Shown here piece after piece: positions 1 to 20,858 of a stretch of 20,858 nucleotides of DNA (the first letter of the stretch is position 1; the number at the start of each line of letters is the position of its first letter). Under the pieces are notes generated by a model. It searched no databases. It was not told the origin of the DNA and worked only from the letters and a program-made list of their open reading frames with translations. Both the position numbers and the translations under genes were made by a program. Source of the stretch: a virus; the IMG/VR virus record IMGVR_UViG_3300047388_000343, positions 1 to 20,858 of that record; one strand, 5' to 3'.

Positions 1-123
1 ACCGGGCACCCCCGCCGGGCGCGCCGTTTCTTTTCCGGCGCCTCGACCCCCGGGGACGTCTGTCAACCGTTTCTCCCCCCGACCCCTCGAAAACACGCCG
101 GCTTCGCCAGATGGGGACAGGTA

Positions 124-411
124 GTGGCCGGATCTCGCCGGATCGGCCGGGTGGAGCGGGGATTGGACCTCGAGCTCCGGGGATCACCCCTCGAGGGGGG
201 AGCTCGAGCCCATCTCCGCGCCGCGGCGCGCCTGGTGGACGTGGTGGAAGCCCTCGCCGACGTTGACGCCGGCGCCAAGATGGTCCGTGCCTATCTCGAG
301 GTGCGCCAAGCGTACGGACTGGCCGGACAACTAAGGGAACCGCTTGACCCCTTCGCCGCCTTCGTGGCCGGACTATCCGTCCCCACGATGGGGGACGCCC
401 CGCACCCCTAG
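124..411 (+). CDS. Probable small terminase subunit
   Basis: A 95-residue protein directly upstream of, and overlapping, the large terminase gene. Small terminases recognise the packaging site and load the large subunit. The assignment rests mainly on this position. The predicted helical middle (LRAAARLVDVVEALADVDAGA, then RAYLEVRQAYGLAG) resembles the helical C-terminal half of P27-type small terminases, but no diagnostic motif is visible. The GTG start at 124 is only one choice: the frame is open to the left window edge with no stop, and a TTG at 163 is also possible. If the window is a closed circle, this frame would join the gene that runs off the right edge. Confidence 0.6.
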   Translation: MAGSRRIGRVERGLDLELRGSPLEGGARAHLRAAARLVDVVEALADVDAGAKMVRAYLEVRQAYGLAGQLREPLDPFAAFVAGLSVPTMGDAPHP

Positions 412-1798
412 CCGTCCCACCTACGGGCCGGCCGTCGCCGCCATGGCGGACGCCATGGGGTGGCCGCTCATGCCCTGGCAACGGATCGCGGCGGACGTGC
501 TGAACGAGGTGGACCCCTTGTCCGGCCTATTCGTCTTCTCGAGCGTGACCATCTCCGTCCCCCGCCAGTCCGGCAAGACAACCCTCGTGGGCGCCAACGC
601 CGAACACCGCACCATCTACCGGCCGCGCGCTCGAGTGTGGTACACGGCGCAGACTCGAGAGATCGCGCGGGACTGGCTACTTAACGAGCACGTCCCCGGC
701 CTACAGCTATCCCCGCTCGAGCCCTTCGCCAAGGTCCGCCGAGCTCAAGGATCGGAGGGGATCGCCTACCCCCACGGCGGGATGCTCCGGATCTTCGCCC
801 CGCTACCGGCCGCCCTCCACTCCAAACAATCGGACCTCGTGATCGTGGACGAAGCGTGGGCCCACGAGCTCGAGCGGGGCCGCCAGATAGACCAAGCGAT
901 CGTCCCCACCCAAGCCACGCGTCCGGGCGCCCAAGTGTGGAAGGTTTCCACCGCCGGCGACGAATCTTCTCTGTGGCTATGGGACGCCGTGACCCGTGGC
1001 CGGGCCGCCGTGGACGCCGGCCGGCGCGAGGGGGTGGCATATTTCGAGTGGTCTTGTCCGGACGATCTCGACCCGTGCGCGCCGGCCTCGTGGCCGCTCT
1101 ACCATCCCGCCTACGGGATCACCATCGGCGCGCCACAGATGAAAGCGGCCCTCGAGGAACTAGGGCCGGCCGGCTTCGCCCGGGCCTACGGGAACCGCTG
1201 GCCGGAGGGGATGGGGGTGGCCGCGGCGCCGAAGATCCCGCCCGGCCGGTGGGCCGCCGTCCAAGTCCCCGCCGTGCGCGCCATCTCCGCCGGCATGCGG
1301 TGCGCCCTGGCCTTCGACACGCCGCGGGACCGGGCCTCCGGCGCTATCGCGGTGGCCTGGCGGGACCGCCAAGGGCCGCGGTGTGAGCTCGTGGAAGTCC
1401 GGCCGGGGACGGGGTGGATGGCGGAGAAGATCGGGGAGCTCACCGCCCGCCGCCATCCCGTAGGCATTGGCTATCCGGCGGACTCGCCGGCGCTGGACAT
1501 TGCGGACGAGCTCGCCACCGCCGGCCTGCCGGTGGTCCCCATCCGTGGCCGGGACTGGCCGGCCGCGTGCGCCGGATGGCTCGCGGCGGTGCTCGAGCGC
1601 CGGATCCGGATCGGATCCCATCCCGCCCTAGCCGCCGCCGCGGAGGTGGCGCCGGCGCGCGATAGCGGGGACGGGGGGTGGGTATGGCATCGCCGAGGGG
1701 CGATCGCGTCTATTGCGCCGGTGGTCGCGTGCACGGCCGCGGCGTGGGCCCTCGAGCATCCCGCCACCGCGGAAGTGGCCTCGTGGACCGCTTTCTAG
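344..1798 (+). CDS. terL: Terminase large subunit
   Basis: The packaging motor that translocates DNA into the prohead and cuts it. The ATPase half has a Walker A-type loop PRQSGKT at residues 73-79 and a Walker B strand LVIVDEAWA with D169 and E170. The C-terminal half (from about residue 300, starting ALAFDTPRDRASGAIAVAW) fits an RNase H-like nuclease fold, with an acidic residue after the first strand and a later YPADSPALDIADEL segment. The 484-residue length is normal for HK97-type terminases. Start: TTG at 344 keeps the conserved-looking TYGPAVAAMADAMGWPLMPWQ segment but overlaps the upstream gene by 68 bases. ATG at 443 would cut into that segment, so the upstream start is preferred. Confidence 0.93.
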   Translation: MTPSPPSWPDYPSPRWGTPRTPSRPTYGPAVAAMADAMGWPLMPWQRIAADVLNEVDPLSGLFVFSSVTISVPRQSGKTTLVGANAEHRTIYRPRARVWYTAQTREIARDWLLNEHVPGLQLSPLEPFAKVRRAQGSEGIAYPHGGMLRIFAPLPAALHSKQSDLVIVDEAWAHELERGRQIDQAIVPTQATRPGAQVWKVSTAGDESSLWLWDAVTRGRAAVDAGRREGVAYFEWSCPDDLDPCAPASWPLYHPAYGITIGAPQMKAALEELGPAGFARAYGNRWPEGMGVAAAPKIPPGRWAAVQVPAVRAISAGMRCALAFDTPRDRASGAIAVAWRDRQGPRCELVEVRPGTGWMAEKIGELTARRHPVGIGYPADSPALDIADELATAGLPVVPIRGRDWPAACAGWLAAVLERRIRIGSHPALAAAAEVAPARDSGDGGWVWHRRGAIASIAPVVACTAAAWALEHPATAEVASWTAF

Positions 1799-1948
1799 TT
1801 TCTAGGATCTAGAACTTTCGTTTTCGAGCTCAATCGCGACAACTACAAGGGGAAGTCTTGCCCGCGGCGCGAAAGCCCTGGTCGCCGGGATGACCGATCA
1901 TCCATCCCCCGCCGTTTCATCGCCTTAGGCGGGATCCTAGGGGGCCCC
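1799..1948 (+). other. Gap between terminase and portal with a small dyad
   Basis: One of the few non-coding stretches in the late region, and richer in A and T than its surroundings. It opens with a tandem TTTCTAG that overlaps the terminase stop codon, followed by a dyad TTCTAG (1800-1805) and CTAGAA (1809-1814) with a GAT centre, then CTTTCGTTTTCG. A weak terminator or a protein-binding site is possible. No convincing promoter hexamer pair and no small gene were found here. Confidence 0.35.
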
Positions 1949-3286
1949 GTGGGGCCGGGAGTACCCTGGCGGAGTGTGGTGGCCTTACCGTGGAAGCGGA
2001 AGCCGGCGCCGGCGCCGATTGGAGCCGCGGCCGGCATCCCTAGCGTGTTCGGGGCCGCCGTGCCGGGGCCCGGCGTCCAAGGGGACGTGGAAGGCTTCTT
2101 GGAGCTCTGGCGCCGAAGGGCCGAACAGAATTCGATAGACGCCGGCGGCTATGCCGGCGTGCCGGGGGGGTGGGCCCCGTACGTGTCGGAGTGGGGGGCC
2201 CGCCAGGTACCGGCCCTCACCGCCGGCCTTCGTCTGATCTCCGGCGTGGTGATGCAGTTACCCCTACGCCAGAAGCGGGGGGATACGGAGGTGGATCCGC
2301 CGGCGACGATCATCACCAATCCGACCCCCGGGCCGAATCGCACCGTGGCGGACTTCGTGGACGAGTACGTGTCCGACGTGCTCTTGTACGGGAACTATGT
2401 GGCCCTGTTGGGGCCGATGGACTCCACCGGGTGGCCGTCTTCGCTTATCCCGCTGGACGTGACCTCCGTGTCTGTGGGCCGGGACCCGGACTCGTGGCTT
2501 CCCCTCTATGCCCTCAAGGGGGTGGACGAGCCGCTACCGGCGGACCGGATCTTCCACGTGGCGATTGACAAGCGATCCGGGGAGCTCAAGGGCCGCGGCG
2601 TGTTGCCTACCCTCACGGGCGCTATCGGCGCGGCGCTGGCCGCGGACGCCTACGCCGGCCGCTACTTCCAAGAGTCCGGCGTCCCCTCCGGCGTGATTAC
2701 CGATAGCCGGCCGAACCTGACCCAAGCCCAAGCGGACGAGCTCAAGATGAAGTGGATCGCGGCCGTGTCGGGGACTCCGGTCCCCGTGGTGGTCCCCTCG
2801 TCCACGACGTTTACCCCGCTGGCCACCGACGCCGACAAAGCGCAGCTAGTCCAAGCCCGCCAGTGGGACGCCACCATGGTCGCCATGATCCTGGGTGTCC
2901 CCCCGTTTCTGTTGGGGATCGAGACCCAACGTCACACCTACACCAACGCGGAAACAGAATTCGGCCGCTTCGTGTCGACGACAATCCTCCGGCTTCTAAA
3001 GCCGCTCGAGCAACAGCTAACCGCCCAATGCCTACCGCGGGGGAACGCCGCCGAATTCTGGACCGGGGCCCTGTTGCGGGCCGATACCGCTACTCGAGCT
3101 CAAGCCGCCGCCGGCCTCTACGGGGCGGGGATCATCACACTCGAGGAAGCCCGCGTGTTGGCCGGCTTCCCCCCCACGGGGGGCCCCGCCGCCACCCCCG
3201 TACCCTCGCCGGCGCCGGCGCCGAGCTCGAGCCCTGCCGCCGGCGCCGCCGACGCGTCCGGCCGTCTTCATCTCGTGGAGGTGTGA
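1949..3286 (+). CDS. Portal protein, HK97 family
   Basis: Forms the ring at the capsid vertex through which DNA enters and leaves. The body matches the HK97/phage portal family: an N-terminal core with AGLRLISGVVMQLPLR and NRTVADFVDEYVSDVLLYGNYVALLG, a central PADRIFHVAIDKRSGELKGRGVLPTL block, and the hallmark late segment LGIETQRHTYTNAETEFGRFVSTTILRLLKPLEQQL. The C-terminus is a low-complexity Ala/Pro/Ser tail (about residues 410-440), common in portals. Start is uncertain: GTG at 1949 has AGGGGG upstream, while GTG at 1976 or 1979 follows GGCGGAG and gives a protein beginning VALPWKRKPAP. The terminase and the protease flank it in the usual order. Confidence 0.92.
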   Translation: MGPGVPWRSVVALPWKRKPAPAPIGAAAGIPSVFGAAVPGPGVQGDVEGFLELWRRRAEQNSIDAGGYAGVPGGWAPYVSEWGARQVPALTAGLRLISGVVMQLPLRQKRGDTEVDPPATIITNPTPGPNRTVADFVDEYVSDVLLYGNYVALLGPMDSTGWPSSLIPLDVTSVSVGRDPDSWLPLYALKGVDEPLPADRIFHVAIDKRSGELKGRGVLPTLTGAIGAALAADAYAGRYFQESGVPSGVITDSRPNLTQAQADELKMKWIAAVSGTPVPVVVPSSTTFTPLATDADKAQLVQARQWDATMVAMILGVPPFLLGIETQRHTYTNAETEFGRFVSTTILRLLKPLEQQLTAQCLPRGNAAEFWTGALLRADTATRAQAAAGLYGAGIITLEEARVLAGFPPTGGPAATPVPSPAPAPSSSPAAGAADASGRLHLVEV

Positions 3287-3289
3287 TCC

Positions 3290-3925
3290 ATGCCCAAGAT
3301 CCTGTCCCGCGTCTTCGCCTCCGGCCTTCGTGTCCGCGAAGACGGGGACGCCGCGGGCGACGGCCGGACCCTCGTGGGCCTGGCCGTCCCCTTCGGGGTG
3401 GAGTTAGACGTGGTGGATTGGTGGGACGAATACACGGAGACCTTCGAGAAGGGGGCCTTCGCCAAGACCATCCGCGACCGGAAGTGGCCTGTCCCCCTCT
3501 TGTTTCATCACCAACACCGGAGCCTAGGCATCGGCCGCGCGACGCACCTCGAGGAAACGGACGCCGGCCTCGAGGCGGAATTCCATCTCACCGAAGGGGT
3601 ACAACTGGCGGACGAGGTGCTGGCCCTGGTGCTGGACGAGGCGATCTCCGGCCTGTCCATCGGCTTCGAGCCTGTCGATGAACGTCCGACCGTGAAGGGG
3701 CCGGATCGGACGCCGCCCTCGAGCCGGGATCTCGTCATCCGGACCGAAGTCAACCTTCGCGAAGTGTCCGTGTGTAACTTCCCCGCCTACACAGACGCCG
3801 GCGTGACCGGAGTCCGCGAAGCCCAAGCCCGCCACCCCTCCCTAGCCGCCCTGTCCGCGGAGCGGGGCCGCCTTCACGAGCTCCGTACCGTGGCGGTGGA
3901 CCGATGGGGGAGGGTACGGCGGTGA
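3290..3925 (+). CDS. Prohead serine protease, HK97 family
   Basis: Cleaves the scaffold-like N-terminus of the capsid protein and other prohead parts during head maturation. The sequence shows the family core: GLAVPFGVELDVVDWWDEYTETFEKGAF, then PVPLLFHHQHRSLGIGR carrying the likely catalytic His (H74) and AISGLSIGFEPV carrying the likely catalytic Ser (S123). The 211-residue length is normal. The start is ATG at 3290, four bases after the portal stop, with GGAGGTG just upstream inside the end of the portal gene. The last bases overlap the next tiny gene in a GTGA junction, which suggests translational coupling. Confidence 0.9.
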   Translation: MPKILSRVFASGLRVREDGDAAGDGRTLVGLAVPFGVELDVVDWWDEYTETFEKGAFAKTIRDRKWPVPLLFHHQHRSLGIGRATHLEETDAGLEAEFHLTEGVQLADEVLALVLDEAISGLSIGFEPVDERPTVKGPDRTPPSSRDLVIRTEVNLREVSVCNFPAYTDAGVTGVREAQARHPSLAALSAERGRLHELRTVAVDRWGRVRR

Positions 3926-4008
3926 GCCACGCCCAAGCGATCGTCCTACTCGTGGAGGTGGGGATCATCGCCCTCTATGCCCTCGTGGCGCTCGTGGTCC
4001 GCCGGTGA
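3922..4008 (+). CDS. Tiny single-pass membrane protein (28 aa)
   Basis: A 28-residue reading frame, VSHAQAIVLLVEVGIIALYALVALVVRR, that starts in a GTGA overlap with the protease stop and ends in a GTGA overlap with the next small gene. Nearly the whole chain is one hydrophobic segment closed by two arginines, the pattern of a single transmembrane helix with a positive cytoplasmic end. Function is unknown. It is too short for default gene callers. Support comes from the precise overlaps at both ends and from codon use like that of its neighbours. A chance hydrophobic frame in GC-rich DNA is the alternative. Confidence 0.5.
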   Translation: MSHAQAIVLLVEVGIIALYALVALVVRR

Positions 4009-4145
4009 GCGGGGAAAAGGGGAACCGTCCGGACGAGCCGGAGCCGCCGGCGGAGCCGGAGCCGGAGCCGCCGGAGGACGAGCGACCGAAGCGGGGGGCC
4101 GCGCCCTCGAGCGTGGACCCCGGCCGGCGGATCTCCACGCGCTAG
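4005..4145 (+). CDS. Small Pro/Glu-rich protein (46 aa)
   Basis: Starts at GTG 4005 in a GTGA overlap with the tiny membrane protein and ends with TAG at 4143-4145. The protein is dominated by an acidic proline repeat, PDEPEPPAEPEPEPPEDE (about residues 9-26), followed by a basic C-terminus. Such a chain should be extended and disordered. Its position just before the capsid gene would fit a head accessory or decoration role, but nothing in the sequence proves that. Repetitive GAG CCG codons could have arisen by slippage, so the frame may be under weak constraint. Confidence 0.45.
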   Translation: MSGEKGNRPDEPEPPAEPEPEPPEDERPKRGAAPSSVDPGRRISTR

Positions 4146-4255
4146 TCTTCGCCTGTCCGGGGCCGGACGCCTAGCCGGAGCCAAGTTGTGTGAGCCACCA
4201 CTAGGGAGCGTGGAGCCACCCCAAGGGGACGCCAGATAGATCCGTCTTCACCCTT

Positions 4256-4261
4256 GGAGGA
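4256..4261 (+). promoter_or_regulatory. Strong ribosome binding site of the capsid gene
   Basis: GGAGGA lies four bases before the ATG at 4265 and is among the best Shine-Dalgarno matches in the window, as expected for the most highly made protein. It closes a 119-base non-coding stretch (4146-4264) that otherwise shows only repeated GGAGCCA-type words (4184, 4212) and no clear promoter. Confidence 0.7.
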
Positions 4262-4264
4262 ATC

Positions 4265-5551
4265 ATGGCAATTTCGCTCGTGGACGTGCTCCGCCAGTCC
4301 ATAGACGAGCTCCACGGCCGGATGAACGCAATCGAAGCCGCGGCCGTGGCCGATCAACGCGACACCCTGAACGACGTGGAACAGACCACGTGGGACGAGC
4401 TCCGCACCGAAGCCGAAGCGAAGACCAAGCGTCTAGAGCTCTTGGTGTCGCGTGCCGAGCTGGACGCCCACGCCGGCGAGTTAATCGCCCGGACTCGAGG
4501 CGGGGCCCCGCCGGCGGGGGAGGTGATCGCCAACGCCCGGCCGGACTTCCCCTACCGGACCCCCGGCGATTACGTGTTGGCCTATATGCGGACCAAGCAC
4601 GGGGACACCGGCGAAGCGGCCCGCTTCACTCGAGCCCTCGCCGACGTGACCACGGCGGGGACGCCGGGCCTGGTCCCCCCGCAAGTCACCGGCGACATAT
4701 TGGGCGAGTGGCTCGCCAACCGGCCGTCCGTGGACGTGATGACCAAGCCGGAGCTCCCCCCGGTAGGGATGGAAGTCCAACGGCCCCATATCTCCCAACA
4801 CACCGACGTTGCTCCGCACGTGGAGAAGGGCCCCGTCGCGTCGCAACAGTTCACGCTTGACCTTGCGAGGATCCCGCTCAACTCTTACGCCGGCGGGGTG
4901 GACGTGTCGTGGGAGCTCGCCAACCGCTCGAGCCCGGCCGCGCTGGACGTGATCTTCCGGGACCTCGTGAACGTCTACGCCCGCAAGAGCGACCAAGCTG
5001 CCTTCGGCGGACTGGCCGCCAACGTGACCCAAGCCGTCGCGTGGGACGGGACCGCCGCCACGCTGGCCAAGGCGATCGCGGACGCCGCCGTGGACGTGGC
5101 GACGAACAGCGAAGAAAACTTGTTCCCCGACACGGTATGGCTAGGCCTCGCCGCCTACGGACTTCTGGCCAGTCTCACGGACGGGAACGGCCGGCCCCTG
5201 TTCCCCTATCTGGCCCCGGCGAACGCCTACGGGACCGCCGACGCGGTGGGGAACATCTCGAGCGTGATGGGACTCCGGCCCGCCGTGGACCCCTACATAA
5301 CGCCGAATTCGTTTCTGGTGGGCGCCTCCGATCAAGCGGAGTTTTACGAGACCCCCGGAGCTCCGGTCCAGCTGTCCGTGGTGGACGTGGGGGTGGCCGG
5401 CTACAACGTGGGAGTTATCGGTATGTGGGCCGCGGCCGCCGTGGATCCCGCCGCCTTCTGCAAGATAACGAGCGTGCTCCTTCCCCTCGCGGCGCGTGGT
5501 AGCACGGAGCCGGCGCCGGCGTCAGGAGCGACGAAGAAAGCCGCTTCCTAG
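4265..5551 (+). CDS. Major capsid protein, HK97 fold
   Basis: Builds the icosahedral head. Residues about 1-75 are charged and helical (DVLRQSIDELHGRMNAIEAAAVADQRDTL onwards), as in the delta or scaffold domain that the prohead protease removes. A linker rich in Gly, Ala and Pro follows. The HK97-fold body starts around LADVTTAGTPGLVPPQVTGDILGEW and contains the typical VDVSWELANRSSPAALDVIFRDLVNVYARKSDQAAF spine-helix region. The length of 428 residues suits a full-length member with an N-terminal scaffold domain. The preceding protease and portal genes confirm the assignment. Confidence 0.93.
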   Translation: MAISLVDVLRQSIDELHGRMNAIEAAAVADQRDTLNDVEQTTWDELRTEAEAKTKRLELLVSRAELDAHAGELIARTRGGAPPAGEVIANARPDFPYRTPGDYVLAYMRTKHGDTGEAARFTRALADVTTAGTPGLVPPQVTGDILGEWLANRPSVDVMTKPELPPVGMEVQRPHISQHTDVAPHVEKGPVASQQFTLDLARIPLNSYAGGVDVSWELANRSSPAALDVIFRDLVNVYARKSDQAAFGGLAANVTQAVAWDGTAATLAKAIADAAVDVATNSEENLFPDTVWLGLAAYGLLASLTDGNGRPLFPYLAPANAYGTADAVGNISSVMGLRPAVDPYITPNSFLVGASDQAEFYETPGAPVQLSVVDVGVAGYNVGVIGMWAAAAVDPAAFCKITSVLLPLAARGSTEPAPASGATKKAAS

Positions 5552-5553
5552 CG

Positions 5554-5913
5554 ATGGTGTCACCGGGGCCGGGAGCGTGGCTAACGCTCGAGGAATATAA
5601 AGCGTGGGCCCGGATCGACGCGTCCGACGTGACCGACGATGCCGCCATAACCGAAGCGGTGGACGCCACGATGGAAGCCCTCGAGATCCGGGCCCCGGTG
5701 GCCTTCGTGACCGACGACACTGGCGCCCTGGCGGAGCCGGTGCCCAAGTCCGTCCACGAAGCCGGCTTGTTGCTCACTAACCGGCTAATGGCCCGCCGGA
5801 ACAGTCCGGACGGGGTAGTGGGTGTCTCCGATATGGGGACGGCCCGGATCCTGTCCTACGACGCCGACATAACCGCGATGGTCGCGCCGTGGACGGAGAT
5901 GGTCGTGGGATGA
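5554..5913 (+). CDS. Head-tail adaptor, gp6-like
   Basis: A 119-residue protein right after the capsid gene. It opens WLTLEEYKAWARIDASDVTDDAAITEAVDATMEALEIRAP, the pattern of HK97 gp6-like head-tail connectors, in which an N-terminal helix with a LTLEEYK-type start is followed by a helical bundle. These proteins form a ring below the portal. The later VHEAGLLLTNRLMARRNSPDGVVGVSD segment fits the family's second helix and loop. It starts at ATG 5554, two bases after the capsid stop, and overlaps the next gene by four bases (ATGA). Confidence 0.8.
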   Translation: MVSPGPGAWLTLEEYKAWARIDASDVTDDAAITEAVDATMEALEIRAPVAFVTDDTGALAEPVPKSVHEAGLLLTNRLMARRNSPDGVVGVSDMGTARILSYDADITAMVAPWTEMVVG

Positions 5914-6248
5914 GCTCGAGCCAAGCCGCCCTAGATATCTGTGAAAAGTTGAAAGCTGCCGGCGTGCGCGCCACCACGGACGCCGGCGCCCTCAACCCCC
6001 CGGCCGTGCTCGTGGTCCCACCACGGCGGGTGTATGACCTGGCGTGCGGCTATACCGCCGTATGGAACGTCCACGCCATCGCCTCCGCGCCCACCGGCGG
6101 GGACCGCAACACGTGGGCGCAGCTGGACGAGCTCGTGGACGCCATCGCCTCCGTCTATCCCCTCGAGCTCGCCCAACCCGGGGCCTACGTGTTGGGCCCC
6201 AACACCCTTCCTAGCTACCTTGTCCAATTCTCCGAAGGGATCGAGTGA
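5910..6248 (+). CDS. Probable tail terminator protein
   Basis: A 112-residue protein starting MSSSQAALDICEKLKAAGVRATTDAGALNPPAVLVVPP. The plan (first helix, AGVRAT strand, NPPAVLV strand, a WNVHAIA strand, then a second helix AQLDELVDAIASVYP and a last strand) matches the tail terminator family of actinophage siphoviruses. These proteins cap the tail tube and fix its length. The ATG at 5910 sits in an ATGA overlap with the adaptor stop, and this start is preferred over an upstream GTG inside the adaptor gene. A head-closure role is the main alternative. Confidence 0.65.
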   Translation: MSSSQAALDICEKLKAAGVRATTDAGALNPPAVLVVPPRRVYDLACGYTAVWNVHAIASAPTGGDRNTWAQLDELVDAIASVYPLELAQPGAYVLGPNTLPSYLVQFSEGIE

Positions 6249-14180: not shown

Positions 14181-14240
14181 CCGGAACACAACAAGCCGCA
14201 CCTTCGCACCCCACGCCGTCACAGTCCGTCACAAGGGAAA

Positions 14241-14352: not shown

Positions 14353-14356
14353 GACC

Positions 14357-15532: not shown

Positions 15533-15574
15533 TGGGTCGATTCCCTTCCATGCCTAGGGGATCCGATCCGGGAT

Positions 15575-15600
15575 CCGGCCCGCTCGCTATAGCGGGCCGG
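15575..15600 (-). promoter_or_regulatory. 10-bp hairpin in the integrase leader
   Basis: CCGGCCCGCT (15575-15584) and AGCGGGCCGG (15591-15600) form a perfect 10-bp stem with a CGCTAT loop, one of the strongest hairpins in the window. If the TACAAT at 15605-15610 is the -10 element, the integrase transcript would begin almost exactly at this hairpin and carry it at its 5' end. Such 5' stems can stabilise mRNA. There is no T tract on either side, so a terminator is less likely. Confidence 0.6.
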
Positions 15601-15604
15601 TTCC

Positions 15605-15610
15605 ATTGTA
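15605..15610 (-). promoter_or_regulatory. Leftward -10 element (TACAAT), candidate integrase promoter
   Basis: On the minus strand GTACAATGG matches the sigma-70-type -10 box with one mismatch. The same nine bases are found at the rightward promoter near 16041. No good -35 hexamer is seen at the normal distance, so the promoter may be weak or need an activator. CTGACCTGC overlaps it (15618-15626) and recurs upstream of the rightward promoter (15976-15984), perhaps as a shared operator. The remaining leader (15611-15672) holds the dyad CTACA-TC-TGTAG (15639-15650). Confidence 0.45.
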
Positions 15611-15672
15611 CGGGGCCCTGACCTGCGTCTACCCCCACCTACATCTGTAGTTGCGGCTAGAACCATCTACAC

Positions 15673-15897
15673 ATGGCGGCTTCCCCACGGTATGGCCGGG
15701 CTATCAACGTAAACCTGACCCCCGAAGCCCGCGAGGGGTGGCAAGACCTGGCCGACACCTACGGGGCCGACGTGACCGCCTTACTCGAGGTGATCGGCGT
15801 CCGTCTGGCCGCCGGCGGGATCCGATCGCTTCGCTTGGACGAGATCGGCCGGGCCGCCCGTGAGCTCTCCGCGGCCCGCCGCCGTAGGTCCACGTAG
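15673..15897 (+). CDS. Small ribbon-helix-helix-like protein, candidate repressor
   Basis: A 74-residue protein, MAASPRYGRAINVNLTPEAR and onwards. The short strand RAINVNLTPEA followed by helix EGWQDLADTYG, a turn, and helix DVTALLEVIGVRLAA is the layout of Arc/CopG-type ribbon-helix-helix domains. The C-terminus is basic (RAARELSAARRRRST). It sits alone between the integrase and the early operon, flanked on both sides by dyads and repeats, the usual place of a phage repressor or Cro-like regulator. No clear ribosome site precedes the ATG, so a leaderless or weakly translated message is possible. Fold and role are inferred from pattern only. Confidence 0.6.
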   Translation: MAASPRYGRAINVNLTPEAREGWQDLADTYGADVTALLEVIGVRLAAGGIRSLRLDEIGRAARELSAARRRRST

Positions 15898-15929
15898 GTC
15901 CGTCTATCCAGACGGCTCGCTAAGGGCCT

Positions 15930-16016
15930 TGTGACGCCCTGTGACGCCCTGTGATCCACAGTTACGGCCGGGGCGCTGACCTGCAATTTCCACCGGAAAT
16001 TCACAGCCTGTGACCC
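15930..16016 (+). promoter_or_regulatory. Operator-like cluster: 10-bp repeats and two dyads
   Basis: GTGACGCCCT is repeated at 15931-15940 and 15941-15950, followed in phase by GTGATCCACA (15951-15960), so three GTGA words lie one helical turn apart. The third forms the dyad CTGTG-ATC-CACAG (15949-15961). Further on is a perfect inverted repeat AATTTCC-ACC-GGAAATT (15985-16001), A/T-rich for this DNA, and then CTGTGACCCC. The block lies just upstream of the rightward promoter, so it is a good candidate for binding by the RHH-like or another regulator. A second replication origin is a less likely reading. Confidence 0.6.
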
Positions 16017-16017
16017 C

Positions 16018-16047
16018 TTGTGCCGGCCGGGTGCCCGGGTGTACAAT
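16018..16047 (+). promoter_or_regulatory. Rightward early promoter, TTGTGC - 18 - TACAAT
   Basis: TTGTGC (16018-16023) and TACAAT (16042-16047) are separated by 18 bases, an acceptable sigma-70-type pair. Transcription would start near 16054, leaving a leader of about 75 bases before the GTG at 16130. The -35 element abuts the repeat and dyad cluster upstream, so a protein bound there could block or stimulate it. Confidence 0.55.
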
Positions 16048-16129
16048 GGCCCGGAGCCACCACAGCTAGTCACCATCCGACCGCAGAAGTGGCGGGACTC
16101 GAGCGGCCGGCGGAGATCGGGGAAGGATC

Positions 16130-16348
16130 GTGACCGTTTCTCGTTTACGCAAATTGCCGAGCCCAGAAGCCCAAGAGCTCGAGCCCTTCAAGGTGGTTTG
16201 TCGCCGGCTAGGGATCCACCCCAATACCGGCTACAAGTTGCGCCGCGAAGACCGCTTCCCCTTCGAGGTGATCGAGGTGGGCGACCGCTTCTACTGCCGT
16301 ACGGGGGACGTGGACGCGTTGCTCCGCGACCGGGCCCGCGTCGGATGA
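16130..16348 (+). CDS. Excisionase-like / AlpA-MerR type HTH protein
   Basis: A 72-residue protein whose second half, FKVVCRRLGIHPNTGYKLRR then FPFEVIEVGDRFYCRTGDVDALL, has the helix-turn-helix-wing pattern of excisionase and AlpA-like DNA-binding proteins (a helix, a short turn with a P.TGYKLRR recognition helix, then a strand with G.R.YCR...V). Such proteins bend attP DNA to direct excision or regulate early genes. It is the first gene of the rightward early operon, with GGGGAAGGA as ribosome site and a GTG start. The ATGA overlap with the next gene suggests coupling. Excisionase versus transcription regulator cannot be decided here. Confidence 0.7.
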   Translation: MTVSRLRKLPSPEAQELEPFKVVCRRLGIHPNTGYKLRREDRFPFEVIEVGDRFYCRTGDVDALLRDRARVG

Positions 16349-17028
16349 CCTCGAGCGAACCGGCGACGGGGGAGCTCGTCCCCCTGGCCGTAGGCCGGCT
16401 ATCGCCCACCGAAACGCGCGAGCGCGCGCTATGGGTGCGGGAGGTGACCAAAGCCGCCTTGGTGGAGGGGACGGACTACGGGATCTTCCCTGGTACCGAT
16501 CGGCCGGCGCTTCTCAAGCCGGGCGCGGAGATGTTGCTACTCGCCGCCGGCCTTGGCTTCGCCACCGTGCGCGGCTCGGTGGACCTCGACGCGGACGGCC
16601 GGCGATTGGGGGTGTACTACAAGACCACCGTCCGGCGCGGGGACGTGATCGTGGCCGAGTGCGAGGGGTACGCCGGCTATGACGAGTCGCGGTGGTTCCG
16701 ATCAGCGGAAGACTCCGAGAAGCTCGAGCGCGAATACGCCAAGCGGGACAAGCGCCCGCCGCGTCCGGAGCGATTCGTCGAATACCGGGCCCCGTGGAAC
16801 ACCCTGGTCAAGATGGCCCAGAAGCGGGCCCTGGTGGGCGCCACCCTGAACGCCACCGCCGCGTCCGGCCTGTTCGTAGTGGGGGACTCCGACGATGATG
16901 AGATCGGCCCCGGGTCCGGCGCTGGACGGGGAAGTCCGCCATCCACGGGCCCGGGCCGCTCGAGCTCGAGCGATCGCGTCCCCGATCACGTCCACGACGA
17001 AGCGCCAGAAGCGCGCGGCTACCGGTGA
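16345..17028 (+). CDS. Conserved phage protein, possibly recombination-related
   Basis: A 227-residue protein. It has EGTDYGIFPGTDRPALLKPGAEMLLLAAGLGF, then YYKTTVRRGDVIVAECEGYAGYDESRW and later APWNTLVKMAQKRALVGATLNATAASGLF. This combination (KPGAE near the N-terminus, a VAECEG strand, and N(T)xxKMAxKRAxVxAxLxATxASxLF near the C-terminus) recurs in phage and prophage early regions, often beside recombination genes. I recall no proven biochemical role. A single-strand annealing or DNA-binding function is a guess from context. The tail from about residue 175 is acidic, then Ser/Pro-rich and disordered. ATG 16345 forms an ATGA overlap with the previous gene. Confidence 0.75.
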   Translation: MTSSEPATGELVPLAVGRLSPTETRERALWVREVTKAALVEGTDYGIFPGTDRPALLKPGAEMLLLAAGLGFATVRGSVDLDADGRRLGVYYKTTVRRGDVIVAECEGYAGYDESRWFRSAEDSEKLEREYAKRDKRPPRPERFVEYRAPWNTLVKMAQKRALVGATLNATAASGLFVVGDSDDDEIGPGSGAGRGSPPSTGPGRSSSSDRVPDHVHDEAPEARGYR

Positions 17029-17678
17029 TCCGCGACACGCAACTATCGCTAATCGAGGGGATGGAGCGGCCCGTGGGCCCTGTCCCACAGTCCGTCATCG
17101 GCGGATCTAACGCCGAGCTCGTCCGGCGGATCGCCCCGCTTTACCTGACGGGATCCGTGCTGGACGTCACCTACGGGAAGGGCCGATGGTGGGAGCTCTA
17201 CCGGCCGGAGCCCTTCGCCTTCCACGATCTCGAGGTGGACGGGGTGGACTTCCGGGCCCTTCCCTACCCGCGCCGCTCGTGGGACGCCGTGACCTTCGAT
17301 CCGCCCTATGTGGAATCGGGAAGCCGGGACACCTCGAGCCGGCGGGACTTCCTCGACGGCTACGGACTAGGGACCCAATCGGACGAGCGGGTGGACCCGG
17401 CGGAGACAAGGGCCCTTATGGTGTCCGGCCTTCTCGAGTGCTGCCGGGTGGCGGAATGTTGGGTGCTCATGAAGTGCATGGAATATGTGGCCTGGCACCG
17501 CTTCCACGATGCGCCCACCCTGGCGATCAACGCCGCCGCCGGCGCCGGATGGGAGCTCCATGATCGGATCGTGCACGCCACCGGCGGGGGGATCGGCGGT
17601 GGTTACCGGATCCGAACCGTGAAGCGGTGCCAACGGGCCCACAGCTATCTACTGGTGTTCTCGAGGGGCCGGCGGTGA
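17025..17678 (+). CDS. DNA methyltransferase (amino-methyltransferase type)
   Basis: Transfers a methyl group from S-adenosylmethionine to an exocyclic amine of adenine or cytosine in DNA. Motif IV is FDPPY (residues 91-95), the hallmark of N6-adenine and N4-cytosine enzymes. SVLDVTYGKGRWWE (about 43-57) is the SAM-binding region, with a TYGKG variant of the usual D.F.G.G loop. The 217-residue length is that of a minimal enzyme without a separate target-recognition domain. No restriction partner is nearby, so it is an orphan that may protect phage DNA or mark it for regulation. GTG 17025 overlaps the previous stop (GTGA). The recognition site is unknown. Confidence 0.85.
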   Translation: MIRDTQLSLIEGMERPVGPVPQSVIGGSNAELVRRIAPLYLTGSVLDVTYGKGRWWELYRPEPFAFHDLEVDGVDFRALPYPRRSWDAVTFDPPYVESGSRDTSSRRDFLDGYGLGTQSDERVDPAETRALMVSGLLECCRVAECWVLMKCMEYVAWHRFHDAPTLAINAAAGAGWELHDRIVHATGGGIGGGYRIRTVKRCQRAHSYLLVFSRGRR

Positions 17679-17836
17679 GGCGCGCGATCATCGCTTGGAT
17701 GAAGTGGTGGTGGCATCTGTGGCGCGTCCACCGGGCCGTCTATGTGGCCCACGAGCGGGGGGATCCGATGGCCACCGCTCGAGCCGTGCAACTACTCGAG
17801 CGGATCCGGATCGGCCGGCCGTGGTCTCCGCCGTAG
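17675..17836 (+). CDS. Small Trp-rich basic protein, unknown
   Basis: A 53-residue protein, VRRAIIAWMKWWWHLWRVHR followed by AVYVAHERGDPMATARAVQLLERI. The first part is an amphipathic helix with five Trp and several Arg/His, which may associate with a membrane or a partner protein. The second part is a plain Ala/Arg/Leu helix. It starts in a GTGA overlap with the methyltransferase stop, so it is probably coupled to it. I do not recognise a family, and an accessory role to the methyltransferase is only a possibility. Confidence 0.6.
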   Translation: MRRAIIAWMKWWWHLWRVHRAVYVAHERGDPMATARAVQLLERIRIGRPWSPP

Positions 17837-17845
17837 ACAGAAGGG

Positions 17846-17869
17846 GCCGGCTTCGTGGGAGAAGCCGGC
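17846..17869 (+). terminator. 9-bp perfect hairpin in the early operon gap
   Basis: GCCGGCTTC (17846-17854) pairs exactly with GAAGCCGGC (17861-17869) around a GTGGGA loop, ten bases after the stop of the Trp-rich gene. It is the only sizeable gap (89 bases) in the early operon. No T tract follows, so an incomplete terminator, an RNA-processing or stability element, or a leader for the following genes are all open. Confidence 0.5.
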
Positions 17870-17925
17870 GCCCTGGCTACCGAGGGGGGAAGCCGCCGCC
17901 GATCGTACCTAGAGGGGAAGGGAAC

Positions 17926-18129
17926 ATGGCGGACACCGAAGACGGAGCACGCCGCGCCAACCTGTTGGGAGACCTCGAGATCCTAAATATGGAGCTCGCC
18001 CGGATGCGAGTGGCGCCGATCATCTCCGACGCCGCCGCTTCGCTCTATCCCGTGGACGACCTCCCCGCCCTAATCGCCGCGACCCGCCGCCACCTTCGCA
18101 AGACGGCCGCCGATCTAGGCGGACTGTGA
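17926..18129 (+). CDS. Small helical protein, unknown
   Basis: A 67-residue protein, MADTEDGARRANLLGDLEIL followed by NMELARMRVAPIISDAAASLYPVDDLPALIAATRRHLRKTAADLGGL. It is preceded by GAGGGGAAGGGA, a good ribosome site, and starts with ATG. The sequence predicts two or three amphipathic helices with an acidic N-terminus and a basic C-terminus. No motif identifies it. It directly precedes the winged-helix gene, with one base between its stop and that gene's GTG start, so a helper role in replication is possible but unproven. Confidence 0.7.
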   Translation: MADTEDGARRANLLGDLEILNMELARMRVAPIISDAAASLYPVDDLPALIAATRRHLRKTAADLGGL

Positions 18130-18130
18130 C

Positions 18131-18634
18131 GTGTCGTGGGAGCTCGTCTTGTGGGCGCGAGACGCGCCGGTGGACCCCACCGCCCGCCACGTGCTAATGG
18201 TGATCGCCACCCACGCCAACCGCTACGGCCGGGCCTGGCCCTCGAGCGACACCATCGCCCACGAGACCGGACGCCATATCCGCACCGTGATTAAGGCGGT
18301 GGATCGGATCGAAGAAGCCGGCGTGATTGACGTGATCCACAGACGGGGCCGATCATGCGAATTCGTGTTTCCACAAGATCCACACCCCTGGCGTAGCGCC
18401 CCTAACCCCTGGCATCCGGCCCTAAACCCCTGGCGTAGCGCCACACATAAGAACTTAGAAGAACTACAGAAGAACGCGCCGGACGCCGGCCGCTTCACTA
18501 CGTGGCGGCCCGCCGGCGAAACCCAAGACGCCGGCCCGGTGGATATGCGGGCCCTACTCGCCGGCATGAAAGCCCAACTAGCGGCCCGCTCGAGCAACCC
18601 GGAAGGCATGGCCGGAGATGACCGACACCCCTAA
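18131..18634 (+). CDS. Winged-helix protein, candidate replication initiator
   Basis: A 167-residue protein whose first 80 residues match a winged helix of the phage replication-initiator type: DPTARHVLMVIATHANRYGRAWPSSDTIAHETGRHIRTVIKAVDRIEEAGVIDVIHRRGRSCEFVF. The phrase on whole-cell-like growth (VLMVIATHAN..G.AWPS..TIA..TG...RTV..A...LE..G.I) is the usual HTH_36 pattern. Residues about 85-105 are a 7-residue repeat (PWRSAPN, PWHPALN, PWRSATH) encoded by three DNA iterons. The remainder is low in features. Proteins of this kind bind the origin and recruit host replication enzymes. No helicase or primase gene is present nearby. Confidence 0.75.
   Translation: MSWELVLWARDAPVDPTARHVLMVIATHANRYGRAWPSSDTIAHETGRHIRTVIKAVDRIEEAGVIDVIHRRGRSCEFVFPQDPHPWRSAPNPWHPALNPWRSATHKNLEELQKNAPDAGRFTTWRPAGETQDAGPVDMRALLAGMKAQLAARSSNPEGMAGDDRHP
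18384..18475 (+). other. Candidate replication origin: three 21-bp iterons and an A-rich stretch
   Basis: ACCCCTGGC begins at 18384, 18405 and 18426, exactly 21 bases (two helical turns) apart. Copies one and three continue as an inverted repeat GGCG-TAG-CGCC; copy two is degenerate. Immediately after is an A-rich stretch (18445-18475, 21 of 31 bases A or T in otherwise GC-rich DNA) with AAGAAC at 18449, 18459 and 18470, about one turn apart. Iterons inside an initiator gene followed by an easily opened stretch is the lambda ori plan. Confidence 0.7.
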
Positions 18635-18902
18635 CAGCGAACTAGCCGCCGCCCTCGAGCGATTGGCGGACGGACAAGACGATCCGTTGGGCCGCTTGCT
18701 CACCGAAGCGGCCGGCCGAATCCGATTGCTATCCGACGCGGTCCGCCGCCTAGGCCTGACCGAAGCCCGACACGCCGCCACCTATGAACGAGTGGCCGGC
18801 GTGTTGCTTACTCAGATGGTGGTGGACGGGTGTAGTCGGACCACGGGGGAGCTCTTGGATCTATTGCGGTGGATGGACGAGCTCGAGGTGGCGGACGCGT
18901 GA
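18618..18902 (+). CDS. Early-region helical protein, unknown
   Basis: A 94-residue protein starting at ATG 18618 with a 17-base overlap with the winged-helix gene. The sequence MTDTPNSELAAALERLADGQ and then DDPLGRLLTEAAGRIRLLSDAVRRLGLTEARHAATYERVAGVLL predicts an all-helical fold, ending LLDLLRWMDELEVADA. Leu and Arg spacing in the first half could form a short coiled coil. No recognised family. It runs in the same operon as the presumed initiator. Confidence 0.7.
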   Translation: MTDTPNSELAAALERLADGQDDPLGRLLTEAAGRIRLLSDAVRRLGLTEARHAATYERVAGVLLTQMVVDGCSRTTGELLDLLRWMDELEVADA

Positions 18903-19180
18903 TGGCCCGGGCCCGGATCCGGATCTATGTGGACGGCCGGATCGTGGACGATACGGACGTGGTATTGGGGGTGGGGGCCCGGGATCTCATTGGGGTACTA
19001 GGGGCGCGGCATGGCGCGATAGCGCAAGAGGCGGAGAAGTCCGGCCGGCGGTGGATGATCGAGATCGTCTGGCCGGATGGGGAACATCTCCGATGGGGGA
19101 CGGACCCGGATCCGATGGTGCTCCCCCTCGAGGTGGGACTAGCGGACCTCGCCGCACGGATAGCGGATCTCTACGATTGA
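18902..19180 (+). CDS. Small alpha/beta protein, unknown
   Basis: A 92-residue protein starting at ATG 18902 (TGATG junction with the previous stop; GTG 18899, giving one more residue, is also possible). It has a strand-rich start, RARIRIYVDGRIVDDTDVVLGVGARDLIGVLGARHG, then RRWMIEIVWPDGEHLRWGTDPDPMVLPLEVGLADLAARIADLYD, suggesting strands followed by a closing helix. The gene is followed by GGAGG of the next gene. Function unknown; no catalytic motif is seen. Confidence 0.7.
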   Translation: MARARIRIYVDGRIVDDTDVVLGVGARDLIGVLGARHGAIAQEAEKSGRRWMIEIVWPDGEHLRWGTDPDPMVLPLEVGLADLAARIADLYD

Positions 19181-19192
19181 ACGGAGGTTGAT

Positions 19193-19480
19193 ATGGCCAT
19201 AACTGCAAGTCAACGGGCCCGCCTACCACGGGGGGCCTACGTCTATGGGCCCCGCTCGCCGGTGGGCGGGAAGGGCCGCAAGGCTTACCCGATCGACACG
19301 CCGGCCCGGGCCCGTAACGCCCTCGCTCGCGCCGCGCAGCGGGGGACGAGCGGAAGCTACCGGACCGTGGCTCGAGCGGTGCGGGCCCGGTACGGGAACC
19401 GGATCGCCAGCGTGGGCCGCCGGCGTGGCACCGTGAGCCGGGCCGGCTACGCCCGGGCCGGACGAGCGCGCCGGCGGTGA
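19193..19480 (+). CDS. Very basic small protein, possible DNA-binding
   Basis: A 95-residue protein with a strong ribosome site (GGAGG near 19182) and an ATG start. It is rich in Arg (RARLPRGAYVYGPRSPVGGKGRKAYPIDTPARARNALARAAQRGTSGSYRTVARAVRARYGNRIASVGRRRGTVSRAGYARAGRARRR). The core KAYPIDTPARARNALARAAQRGT resembles a short phage module in which a YPI(D/H)…A.NAL.R… helix is found alone or fused to other proteins. The high positive charge points to nucleic-acid binding or DNA condensation. The function is not established. Confidence 0.7.
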   Translation: MAITASQRARLPRGAYVYGPRSPVGGKGRKAYPIDTPARARNALARAAQRGTSGSYRTVARAVRARYGNRIASVGRRRGTVSRAGYARAGRARRR

Positions 19481-19746
19481 GCCACGATCCTCGAGCCGCC
19501 TGGCTAGCCGCCGAGCTGGAGGATCATCCCGGCGTGAACCTTCACCTAGACGGACACTCCGCCTTCACCCTGGCCGGCGTGATCCAGCTGGCCCTACGTC
19601 ATCCCGCCCTGTCCGTGGCCGGGCCTATCCCCGCACAGATGCGAGACCTCGTGGGCGCCATCGCCGAAGGCCTGGGCCCCGGCGTGGCCGCCGTGGTGGA
19701 GATGGGATGGGACCCGGCGAACGACGTGGACGAAGCCGATGGCTAG
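19477..19746 (+). CDS. Small acidic protein, unknown
   Basis: An 89-residue protein starting in a GTGA overlap with the basic protein. It reads SHDPRAAWLAAELEDHPGVNLHLDGHSAFTLAGVIQLALRHPALSVAGPIPAQMRDLVGAIAEGLGP. It is acidic and helix-rich, the opposite charge of its coupled neighbour, which makes a pair of interacting proteins conceivable. No family recognised. Confidence 0.7.
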   Translation: MSHDPRAAWLAAELEDHPGVNLHLDGHSAFTLAGVIQLALRHPALSVAGPIPAQMRDLVGAIAEGLGPGVAAVVEMGWDPANDVDEADG

Positions 19747-19930
19747 CCGCGGTGACATAGCCACGCCGGCCGCCTTCGCCGAAGCGATCGCCAAGGTGGC
19801 CGCGCCGCTTGGCCTCGAGCTCAACGCCATCACGTGGAAGGTGACGCCGGACAAGGGATCCGTGGTCACCGTCCGCCTTGTCAGTGAGACTCCGCAGCTG
19901 TCCCTATTCACCGAACCGGGGCCGCTGTGA
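19739..19930 (+). CDS. Small protein with C-terminal SLF-type motif, unknown
   Basis: A 63-residue protein starting at ATG 19739 (8-base overlap) and ending in a GTGA overlap. The chain has a helix (TPAAFAEAIAKVAAPLGLEL) and two strands (NAITWKVTPDKGSVVTVRLVSE). The C-terminus, PQLSLFTEPGPL, contains QLSLF, which matches the consensus of the short clamp-binding motif QL(S/D)LF found in bacterial polymerases and some phage proteins. A role in hijacking the host sliding clamp is therefore possible, by motif only. Confidence 0.65.
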   Translation: MASRGDIATPAAFAEAIAKVAAPLGLELNAITWKVTPDKGSVVTVRLVSETPQLSLFTEPGPL

Positions 19931-20109
19931 AGCGGGACCGGGCCGCCATGCTCGCCGCCCTGGCCAAGGGCCGACACACCTACGTCCCCGGCCGCCAGGA
20001 TGACCGGGCTCGCACCGTGTGCGCCTTGTGCGGGGGAGTATGGGAGGATCCCCGCCACAATCGGGGACCTGGCAAGCGCCGCACCTCGAGCCCTCGAGTG
20101 ATCCCGTGA
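19927..20109 (+). CDS. Small protein with one CxxC, unknown
   Basis: A 60-residue basic protein in GTGA overlaps at both ends. It holds a single CALCG pair (C32 and C35 of MKRDRAAMLAALAKGRHTYVPGRQDDRARTVCALCGGVW), followed by WEDPRHN. His residues at positions 17 and 44 could complete a zinc site. The pattern looks like a small zinc-binding phage protein, but only one CxxC is present. Function unknown. Confidence 0.65.
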   Translation: MKRDRAAMLAALAKGRHTYVPGRQDDRARTVCALCGGVWEDPRHNRGPGKRRTSSPRVIP

Positions 20110-20417
20110 CCGCTATGGAGCCGCCCGAAGGTTCGGAGCCGGAAGGGCCCGGTATGGGTAAGCCGTGGGTACCGCGGCCGGGTGTCACCTTCCTAGCCTT
20201 CGGGGCCTACGTCCGCTCACTTGTAGCCCTCAAGCCGCCGCCACCCCGCGGCCTAGTTGGCATGGACGTCAAGGGGAAGTGGAACCACGGAGCGGAAGAC
20301 ACCCTGTCCATGATCGCTTCACCGGACACCATCCGCGAATGGGCGGACGCCATGCTCGAAGCGGCCGACGCGGCCGAACGTGACGAAGCACAAGTGAAGC
20401 GGGAGTCCGGTGCCTAG
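20106..20417 (+). CDS. Early-region protein, unknown
   Basis: A 103-residue protein starting at GTG 20106 in a GTGA overlap (ATG 20115 is an alternative). After a Pro/Glu/Gly-rich start it reads PGVTFLAFGAYVRSLVALKPPPPRGLVGMDVKGKWNHGAEDTLSMIASPDTIREWADAMLEAADAAERDEAQVK. The second half is a charged helix. Nothing identifies a family. Its last eight bases are shared with the HNH gene (GTGCCTAG). Confidence 0.65.
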   Translation: MTAMEPPEGSEPEGPGMGKPWVPRPGVTFLAFGAYVRSLVALKPPPPRGLVGMDVKGKWNHGAEDTLSMIASPDTIREWADAMLEAADAAERDEAQVKRESGA

Positions 20418-20658
20418 CAATCCCCGATGGTCTCGAGCGTGGGCGAAGCGCCGGCGGATCGTGCTCGAGCGGGATGGGTACCGATGCGCCCTCGAGTATC
20501 CGGGGTGCGAGGGGGTGGCGACCCACGTGGACCACGTGGTCCCCCGCAAGTACGGCGGGGGTGACGAGCTCACCAATCTCCGGGCCGCCTGCCGCCGGTG
20601 CAACCTACGGCGGGGGGATGGCACCGCTCCGATAGGGGAGCCGGCGTCGGCGTGGTAG
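20410..20658 (+). CDS. HNH endonuclease
   Basis: An 82-residue protein with a complete beta-beta-alpha metal HNH core: CALEYPGC (C26, C33) and CRRC (C61, C64) as structural zinc ligands, VDH (D41, H42) as the active-site entry, TNLRAACRRCN (N56, N65) for the central and last positions. Small free-standing HNH enzymes next to the terminase genes assist cleavage of packaged DNA in HK97-like phages. Here the gene lies near the right edge and the terminase starts at the left edge, which fits if the genome is circular or was opened between them. The GTG start overlaps the previous stop. Confidence 0.88.
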   Translation: MPSNPRWSRAWAKRRRIVLERDGYRCALEYPGCEGVATHVDHVVPRKYGGGDELTNLRAACRRCNLRRGDGTAPIGEPASAW

Positions 20659-20858
20659 ACGGGGACCTCGAGGACCTCGAGCGCCTGGCCCTCGCCGAAC
20701 TCCGGCGCCGCATGGCCCCGCCCTACCGTCCGGACTGGACACTGATCGCCTGCCGTGCGTGCGGCCGGCGAATGTACGACGACGACGGACGCCACGTCCA
20801 CCGCTGGTGGTGGGACTGGTGGGGTGGTGGGGGGGTGGCGCGCCGGCGCCGAGCGCGA
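20652..20858 (+). CDS. Partial gene, CxxC and Trp-rich, runs off the window
   Basis: Starting at GTG 20652, inside the end of the HNH gene, an open frame of 69 codons reaches the window edge without a stop. It reads VVDGDLEDLERLALAELRRR, then MAPPYRPDWTLIACRACGRRMYDDDGRHVHRWWWDWW and a Gly run. CRACGRR with the later HVH could bind zinc. If the ends are joined, this frame continues into position 1 and on into the terminase small-subunit frame without a stop, so its true end is not defined here. Confidence 0.5.
   Translation, partial: MVDGDLEDLERLALAELRRRMAPPYRPDWTLIACRACGRRMYDDDGRHVHRWWWDWWGGGGVARRRRAR

Follow-up and report, generated by a model that had tools for sequence, protein, structure and literature searches.

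In phage genomes, palindromes of the restriction-site type should be either neutral or avoided, and CTCGAG is one such word, being recognized by restriction-modification systems of the XhoI/PaeR7I type. Whereas those systems predict avoidance, CTCGAG accumulates in the DNA considered here, and the question is what drives it there. The window, i.e. the whole 20,858-nucleotide stretch that was analysed (positions 1 to 20,858 of IMG/VR record IMGVR_UViG_3300047388_000343), comes from a small soil phage and has a G+C content of 68.3 %. Its features are listed in Table 1. Given the tyrosine integrase gene, the phage is probably temperate; searches within the window found no tRNA attachment site and no restriction-modification gene of the XhoI/PaeR7I type. 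The terminase large subunit (TerL) was used as the anchor for finding relatives.

Table 1. Features of the window, with the basis for each assignment
Feature	Position	Strand	Basis or remark
5′ region without assigned gene	1..343		4 CTCGAG: 169, 190, 203, 295
CTCGAG set, 92 copies	169..20681		first copy 169-174, last 20676-20681
Terminase large subunit	344..1798	+	tblastn to Rhodococcus phage RRH1 and Gordonia phage TerL, 33-39% identity
Portal protein	1949..3286	+	Pfam Phage_portal 1.3e-57
Prohead protease	3290..3925	+	Pfam Peptidase_S78 9.6e-19
Major capsid protein	4265..5551	+	tblastn to mycobacteriophage major capsid proteins: 26% identity, 59% of query, E 3e-8
Tape measure protein (assigned from location and length)	7471..9447	+	longest ORF; tblastn similarity to ORFs in other phage contigs
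Endolysin	13053..13835	+	Pfam Amidase_2 and PG_binding_1
Tyrosine integrase	14357..15532	-	Pfam Phage_integrase 1.3e-19
Small putative DNA-methyltransferase-like protein, DPPY motif	17025..17678	+	phrog_24333 DNA methyltransferase 3.3e-16; 4 CTCGAG: 17229, 17333, 17433, 17660
HNH endonuclease	20410..20658	+	Pfam HNH 3.8e-10

Frequency and placement of CTCGAG

An earlier note on this DNA had estimated by hand about 90 copies of CTCGAG where some 7 would be expected at about 68 % GC; the exact count is 92 on the + strand (and, the word being a palindrome, on both strands) against 7.1 by composition, such that the tenfold excess it had proposed is in fact stronger (observed/expected 12.9; 4.4/kb). 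When all 4,096 hexamers are counted, CTCGAG ranks first in its excess over the composition expectation, and its codon-shuffle z score (19-21) is the highest among all 2,080 reverse-complement pairs. A codon-preserving shuffle, named beforehand as the test that could refute the observation, did not yield a similar number, as the coding sequences hold 79 copies versus 15.7±3.1 after per-gene shuffling (z 20, an approximately five-fold excess). The excess occurs in each of the three frames (CTC GAG, 42/13.1; nCT CGA G, 12/0.5; nnC TCG AGn, 25/2.1), amounting to approximately 19-fold off-frame (38 vs 2.0), and the non-coding stretches (2,159 bp), among them the 5′ region, carry another 13 copies at 6.0/kb. 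Codon or dipeptide usage is thus ruled out as the cause by the shuffles and the frames, as the note had argued. Copies are spread along the window, again as described earlier, and their spacing is random rather than regular (gap CV 0.94; random 0.82-1.19).

The flanks of TCGA are tightly coupled in the window (92/9/16/27, odds ratio 16), which argues that the whole palindrome is favoured and rules out a preference for half sites. A general attraction to all palindromes is likewise ruled out, since palindrome closure overall is merely 1.12x in the window and <1 in many relatives. Two further palindromes that were absent from the earlier note, GAGCTC (64 copies) and GCCGGC (148 copies), are also strongly enriched. 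Its comparison with cyanobacterial HIP1 (GCGATCGC) proves apt: CTCGAG is a GC-rich palindrome present genome-wide and far over expectation, and its occurrence in three frames and in non-coding DNA leaves codon usage and reading frame insufficient to account for it, the HIP-like criterion set in this analysis. Pressure on the DNA word itself, be it selection or biased mutation, pulls the window towards CTCGAG, GAGCTC and GCCGGC wherever synonymous change permits.

The proteins appear to be affected as well. Within the window, 40 of the 48 Leu-Glu pairs are written as CTCGAG. The Leu-Glu dipeptide is itself raised in CTCGAG-rich phages (1.70x, compared with 0.87x in CTCGAG-poor phages and 1.13x in hosts), with the Leu-Asp control being flat, and the difference between rich and poor holds for phages that were not picked by CTCGAG arrays (medians 1.74 vs 0.78, P=0.0003). 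Additionally, conservation towards CTCGAG-poor relatives is reduced among the residues that the window's motif copies encode (9/35 against an expected 49 %; 6/28 against 40 %). The pressure therefore apparently also acts through amino-acid changes.

Distribution among related phages and potential hosts

A single TerL clade spans CTCGAG enrichments from 17.8x (L002) to 0.25x (L018), and two Gordonia sister phages isolated on one strain, Gordonia terrae 3612, differ 15-fold, with 30 copies in SallySpecial and 2 in Emperor. Several unrelated palindromes behave like CTCGAG and switch between relatives. Any strongly enriched palindrome is seen in 3 of 42 contigs of an unrelated sample, compared with 13 of 18 members of the clade to which the window belongs and, among isolated actinophages, 8 of 13, neither of these last two sets being random; strongly enriched CTCGAG occurs in none of the 42. 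Dense CTCGAG arrays are present in diverse phages within a set of viral contigs ascertained for density. In these phages, palindromes are approximately twice as extreme as other hexamers, which is not so in hosts (mean |z| 3.9 vs 1.9 in the window; about 1.2-1.7 vs 1.0-1.45 in hosts), and many other palindromes stand at 0-3 copies where 5-69 are expected. The pressure is a property of the phage lineage; among close relatives it is turned on or off for each palindrome separately, and it involves Type II restriction-modification hexamers.

Among 396 Actinomycetota genomes, the top CTCGAG density is 2.8/kb, in a genome (G177) that also has GAGCTC at 2.7/kb and shows off-frame excesses of 2.9x for CTCGAG and 2.7x for GAGCTC. 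In pooled host pieces, the off-frame excess is 1.4x, with CTCGAG lying mostly in-frame. This sample covers a single phylum and about 400 species, and the window's true host may lie outside it; a TerL search of the 396 genomes gave a best match of 39 %, and a prophage search of genome contigs turned up TerL at just 34 % identity, in a Microbacterium and in a MAG from the Actinomycetota. A restriction endonuclease of the XhoI family (PF04555) is encoded in 23 of the 396 genomes, indicating that CTCGAG systems exist in the presumed host phylum. Genomes carrying the enzyme show no CTCGAG enrichment (0.31/kb vs 0.77/kb), nor does the ratio of CTCGAG to GAGCTC differ (P=0.68).

What might drive the excess

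The leading explanation, to which we assign a probability of roughly one in three, is selection for CTCGAG as a site whose modification by host methyltransferases labels the DNA as self. CTCGAG would be modified by methyltransferases of the hosts in which the phage naturally lives, and having many modified copies would be an advantage if what certain host defences attack is DNA devoid of self marks, not DNA with a cut site; selection would then add CTCGAG as 'passport' sites, the opposite of the avoidance that other palindromes of these genomes show. DISARM has been reported to target DNA an order of magnitude more strongly if that DNA lacks methylation targets (PMC9142583); the motifs named in that report are other than CTCGAG, which counts against the self-mark reading. 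Beyond the DISARM report and the XhoI-family enzymes of the host phylum, selection for self marks is suggested by the frame-independent excess and its extension into non-coding DNA, the writing of Leu-Glu, the elevated dipeptide and the relaxed conservation at motif sites, the extremity of palindromes in phages only, the switching among relatives, and the behaviour of avoidance models and synonymous neighbours described below. Weighing on the other side are the ordinary CTCGAG content of XhoI-family carriers and the fact that the sister phages share an isolation host, so that their natural host histories have to be taken as different. That phages are positively selected to gain such sites, enough to alter protein, because some defences spare marked DNA, is put forward a little more tentatively still.

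Biased mutation or repair in place of selection, in which a methyltransferase-coupled or mismatch-repair process turns near-matches into CTCGAG during residence or replication in the host, is unlikely but has a model in the methyl-dependent mismatch-repair ratchet proposed by Elhai (2015; PMC4390886), who links alternate HIPs with specific methyltransferases. The random spacing fits it, as does the summed 1-mismatch ball around CTCGAG, which in the window is just mildly enriched (153 vs about 123), implying that the copies arise largely at their neighbours' expense. However, the depleted neighbours are of several kinds (CTGGAG, CTAGAG, CTTGAG, CTCGAA and CTCCAG) rather than one base change, the off-frame excess in host sequences is weak even in the densest genome, and the sister phages of one strain stand far apart. 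Nor do CTCGAG-rich relatives have a methyltransferase gene in common: the window's own methyltransferase-like protein has no homologue in 32 related records, which speaks against it as the cause, and regular expressions, a coarse test, found no other methyltransferase-like motif common to them. CTCGAG may be a phage methylation site, as proposed earlier, but the only methyltransferase-like gene of the window is missing from the other CTCGAG-rich relatives. A related proposal, that the host genome itself is HIP-like, with the phage ameliorating towards it, is somewhat less probable than biased mutation. The off-frame excess of exactly CTCGAG and GAGCTC in G177 indicates that a mild cellular form exists, but none of the sampled genomes reaches the density of the window or approaches its off-frame excess, close relatives, for which related hosts are expected, span 0.25x to 18x, and the sister phages were isolated on one strain. 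The earlier suggestion of host mutation pressure taken up by the phage thus fares poorly.

It is rather improbable that CTCGAG is simply what is left over after many restriction-type words were purged. Strong avoidance is real in the window (CCGAG, 14/78; CCCAG, 6/50; CAGCC, 5/38), and resampling with a penalty on all depleted words lifts the CTCGAG expectation from 13.6 to 31-44, albeit in a partly circular model. When avoidance is learnt outside CTCGAG-capable loci, 22-24 copies are predicted (19/1.5/3.3 by frame) versus 75 observed (40/12/23), which largely refutes avoidance as the sole cause. Moreover, in 16 CTCGAG-rich phages, words one mismatch away from CTCGAG are depleted at places where a synonymous change would produce it (90/262) but not elsewhere (1419/1325). 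As words, most neighbours are therefore not avoided, even though the contrast results in part from CTCGAG enrichment itself. Least probable is a functional DNA element, such as a recombination hotspot or a site for segregation, packaging or a nucleoid protein. The many copies, their spread over the genome and their presence in non-coding DNA would suit one, but a palindrome lacks the orientation needed by Chi- or KOPS-like sites, the spacing is random, and unrelated palindromes that act alike and switch between relatives are unexpected for a conserved protein-binding site. The segregation or recombination signal raised in the earlier note is accordingly not favoured.

Precedents and significance

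The nearest precedents of the CTCGAG excess are the GGATCC of cluster B3 mycobacteriophages and the cyanobacterial HIPs, both unexplained. In cluster B3, GGATCC/GATC is over-represented, for which the authors gave no explanation (Siranosian et al. 2015; PMC4841201); in the first 50 kb of the B3 phage Phlyer, GGATCC occurs 75 times versus about 17 by codon shuffle (off-frame 46/12.2). As there, a Type II palindrome, in this case CTCGAG, is in excess throughout the genome in one phage subgroup and not in its sister groups. The codon-shuffle frames for CTCGAG, the neighbour analysis, the non-circular avoidance control, the dipeptide effect and the same-host-strain switching go beyond the B3 case. 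Like HIP1 and the alternate HIPs, where a related genome may favour another palindrome in its place (Elhai 2015; PMC4390886), CTCGAG is greatly over-represented and exchangeable between relatives. However, HIPs are features of cellular chromosomes, at about 1/kb and with a matching methyltransferase gene, whereas the window is phage DNA at 4.4/kb, with several palindromes enriched at once and no consistent methyltransferase in CTCGAG-rich phage genomes. Unlike Chi, KOPS and uptake-type motifs, which are non-palindromic and strand- or orientation-biased, CTCGAG is its own reverse complement. Restriction-site avoidance involves the same hexamer class and the same phages with the opposite sign, and the CTCGAG pattern looks like that avoidance in reverse.

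CTCGAG-type words accumulate far past any sampled host, with a matching dipeptide excess, and their enrichment switches from one sister phage to another. Under biased mutation, these small phages would serve as a compact model of the HIP1 problem. Under selection, a reading that SallySpecial and Emperor make testable, host methylation and defence could be read from the over-represented palindromes of metagenomic phages. Should the passport reading be true, restriction-site avoidance would be just one of a pair of opposing responses, and the set of palindromes in excess would show which methylation systems a phage meets in its natural hosts.

Excess of CTCGAG in the window

The window, a virus record of 20,858 bp, holds 92 copies of CTCGAG where composition predicts 7.1, which bears out the roughly tenfold over-representation claimed in the earlier note. 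A per-gene codon shuffle, based on simple gene calls, did not reproduce a similar number (15.7±3.1 versus 79 observed in coding sequence, z 20) and upheld the further claim of an excess in all three frames (observed/shuffled 42/13.1 for CTC GAG, 12/0.5 for nCT CGA G and 25/2.1 for nnC TCG AGn); the off-frame counts carry most weight, because the shuffle preserves codon usage and not codon-pair context. By this measure CTCGAG ranks first for enrichment among 2,080 hexamer pairs; GCCGGC and GAGCTC are among those that follow. Its copies are randomly spaced, reach 6.0/kb in non-coding stretches and show coupling of both flanks of the TCGA core (odds ratio 16). The host is probably an actinobacterium, since the closest terminases among named phages (33-39% identity) belong to small Rhodococcus and Gordonia phages. 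Additionally, 20 IMG/VR contigs carry terminases 72-82% identical to that of the window, and further ones lie at about 50%.

Gene content of the window
Feature	Position	Remark
Terminase, portal, protease, capsid and tail genes		
Amidase endolysin, tyrosine integrase, HNH nuclease		
Replication-initiation-like HTH protein		
Small DNA-methyltransferase-like gene	17025-17678	4 CTCGAG within 654 bp

Palindrome switching among related phages

Relatives whose terminases are 72-82% identical span a CTCGAG range of 17.8x (L002) to 0.25x (L018), and at sites of identical amino acids the motif of the window is kept at 16/18 in the former and 0/11 in the latter. GAGCTC, GCCGGC, CGGCCG, GACGTC, GGATCC and GTCGAC each switch separately, several falling to zero where 4-28 are expected. 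One 4.4-kb relative (L078) has 32 GAGCTC (22.7x) and zero CTCGAG; in two others, L053 (L261) and L058, 17-22 different six-base palindromes stand at 0-1 copies with 4-15 expected. Isolated phages behave likewise. The Emperorvirus members SallySpecial and Emperor, both from G. terrae 3612 and with 79% nucleotide identity over aligned codons, contain 30 CTCGAG (15 off-frame versus 0.9 expected) and 2, respectively; McGonagall has 28 versus 7.7, Prospero has 84 GCCGGC versus about 24, and the Mycobacterium phage Phlyer (L269, positions 1-50000) has 75 GGATCC versus about 17. In that same stretch, GGATCC is up about four-fold in all frames, and CCGCGG, GCCGGC, CCCGGG and GGCGCC occur at 0-1 copies with 46-69 expected. 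In these phages, palindromic hexamers deviate about twice as strongly as non-palindromic ones, a contrast that host pieces lack; the phages compared are non-independent samples, and their on/off groups were partly picked by inspection. In 42 unrelated viral contigs, three had any strongly enriched palindrome and none had strongly enriched CTCGAG.

Attraction, avoidance and protein sequence

Many other words are avoided in the window (observed/shuffled 14/78 for CCGAG/CTCGG, 6/50 for CCCAG/CTGGG and 5/38 for CAGCC/GGCTG). This strong avoidance concerns non-palindromic words; TGC/GCA and CTG/CAG stand at 0.37-0.41 of composition, and CAA is favoured over CAG at 68% GC. Penalizing all depleted words during synonymous-codon resampling raises expected CTCGAG from 13.6 to 31-44, a model that is partly circular because gains of CTCGAG are losses of its synonyms. 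With penalties learnt solely from codons unable to take part in CTCGAG, 22-24 copies are predicted across the whole window (about 19, 1.5 and 3.3 by frame) versus 75 observed (40, 12 and 23), and CTCGAG encodes 40 of the 48 Leu-Glu pairs. In 16 CTCGAG-rich phages, one-mismatch neighbours of CTCGAG number 90 versus 262 expected at positions where a single synonymous change would create it, a depletion due in part to CTCGAG enrichment itself; the informative part is the absence of depletion elsewhere (1419 versus 1325 expected). Two neighbours are exceptions: CTCGGG, under expectation in all frames, and CTGGAG/CTCCAG (34 versus 176), which is scarce in other frames as well and is probably avoided in its own right. 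The latter word, the methylation motif of mycobacterial MamA, is depleted in nearly every one of these 16 phages (the window and 15 others, e.g. L248, L249, L252 and L244), mostly in every frame.

The pull acts at the word level towards specific Type II palindromes, belongs to the phage lineage and apparently reaches protein sequence. Leu-Glu occurs at 1.70x expectation in CTCGAG-rich phages, 0.87x in CTCGAG-poor phages and 1.13x in host pieces, whereas Leu-Asp is flat; when phages found via CTCGAG arrays are left aside, the medians are 1.74 (rich) and 0.78 (poor), with a P of 0.0003 that is indicative because the phages are related. At CTCGAG sites of the window, amino-acid conservation falls below background towards the CTCGAG-poor L018 (9/35 versus 49%) and L013 (6/28 versus 40%), and lies near background towards rich relatives.

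Hosts, methyltransferases and the source of the pull

Across 396 Actinomycetota genomes, CTCGAG density peaks at 2.8/kb, and the 23 genomes with XhoI-family REases are no richer in CTCGAG than the others. In pooled host pieces, which by design come mostly from CTCGAG-rich genomes, enrichment amounts to 1.6x in-frame and 1.4x off-frame. The densest genome, G177 (L103, L273-L292; 2.6 Mb, CTCGAG 2.8/kb, GAGCTC 2.7/kb), has off-frame excesses of 2.9x and 2.7x, respectively, over 355 kb of CDS; this is a mild version of the phage effect and possibly a mild HIP-like case in a bacterium.

A phage-borne methyltransferase does not appear to be the common cause of CTCGAG richness, since the methyltransferase-like gene of the window has no homologue in 32 related records and a regular-expression scan found no methyltransferase motif in most other rich relatives. 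The few matches (SPPF in ORFs of tape-measure length in L019, L008 and L009) do not resemble methyltransferases. The gene, within its clade found in the window alone, is itself CTCGAG-rich; its phage relatives are weak (27-29%), and a search for solved structures gave no match. The main rival to selection is a bias in mutation or repair, of the type suggested for the HIPs of cyanobacteria (PMC4390886), which would generate CTCGAG. Alternate HIPs with matching methyltransferases have been described there by Elhai (PMC4390886); the window is similar, but none of its genes was identified as a matching methyltransferase. Within the open literature searched, the window is of the same kind as the B3 mycobacteriophages, whose GGATCC/GATC excess was reported by Siranosian et al. 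with its cause left open (PMC4841201). In functional terms, the most economical interpretation would have host methyltransferases modify the favoured palindromes and the modified copies confer protection. This protective reading has a concrete basis in DISARM, which acts against DNA without its methylation targets, targeting being reported as tenfold enhanced in their absence (PMC9142583).
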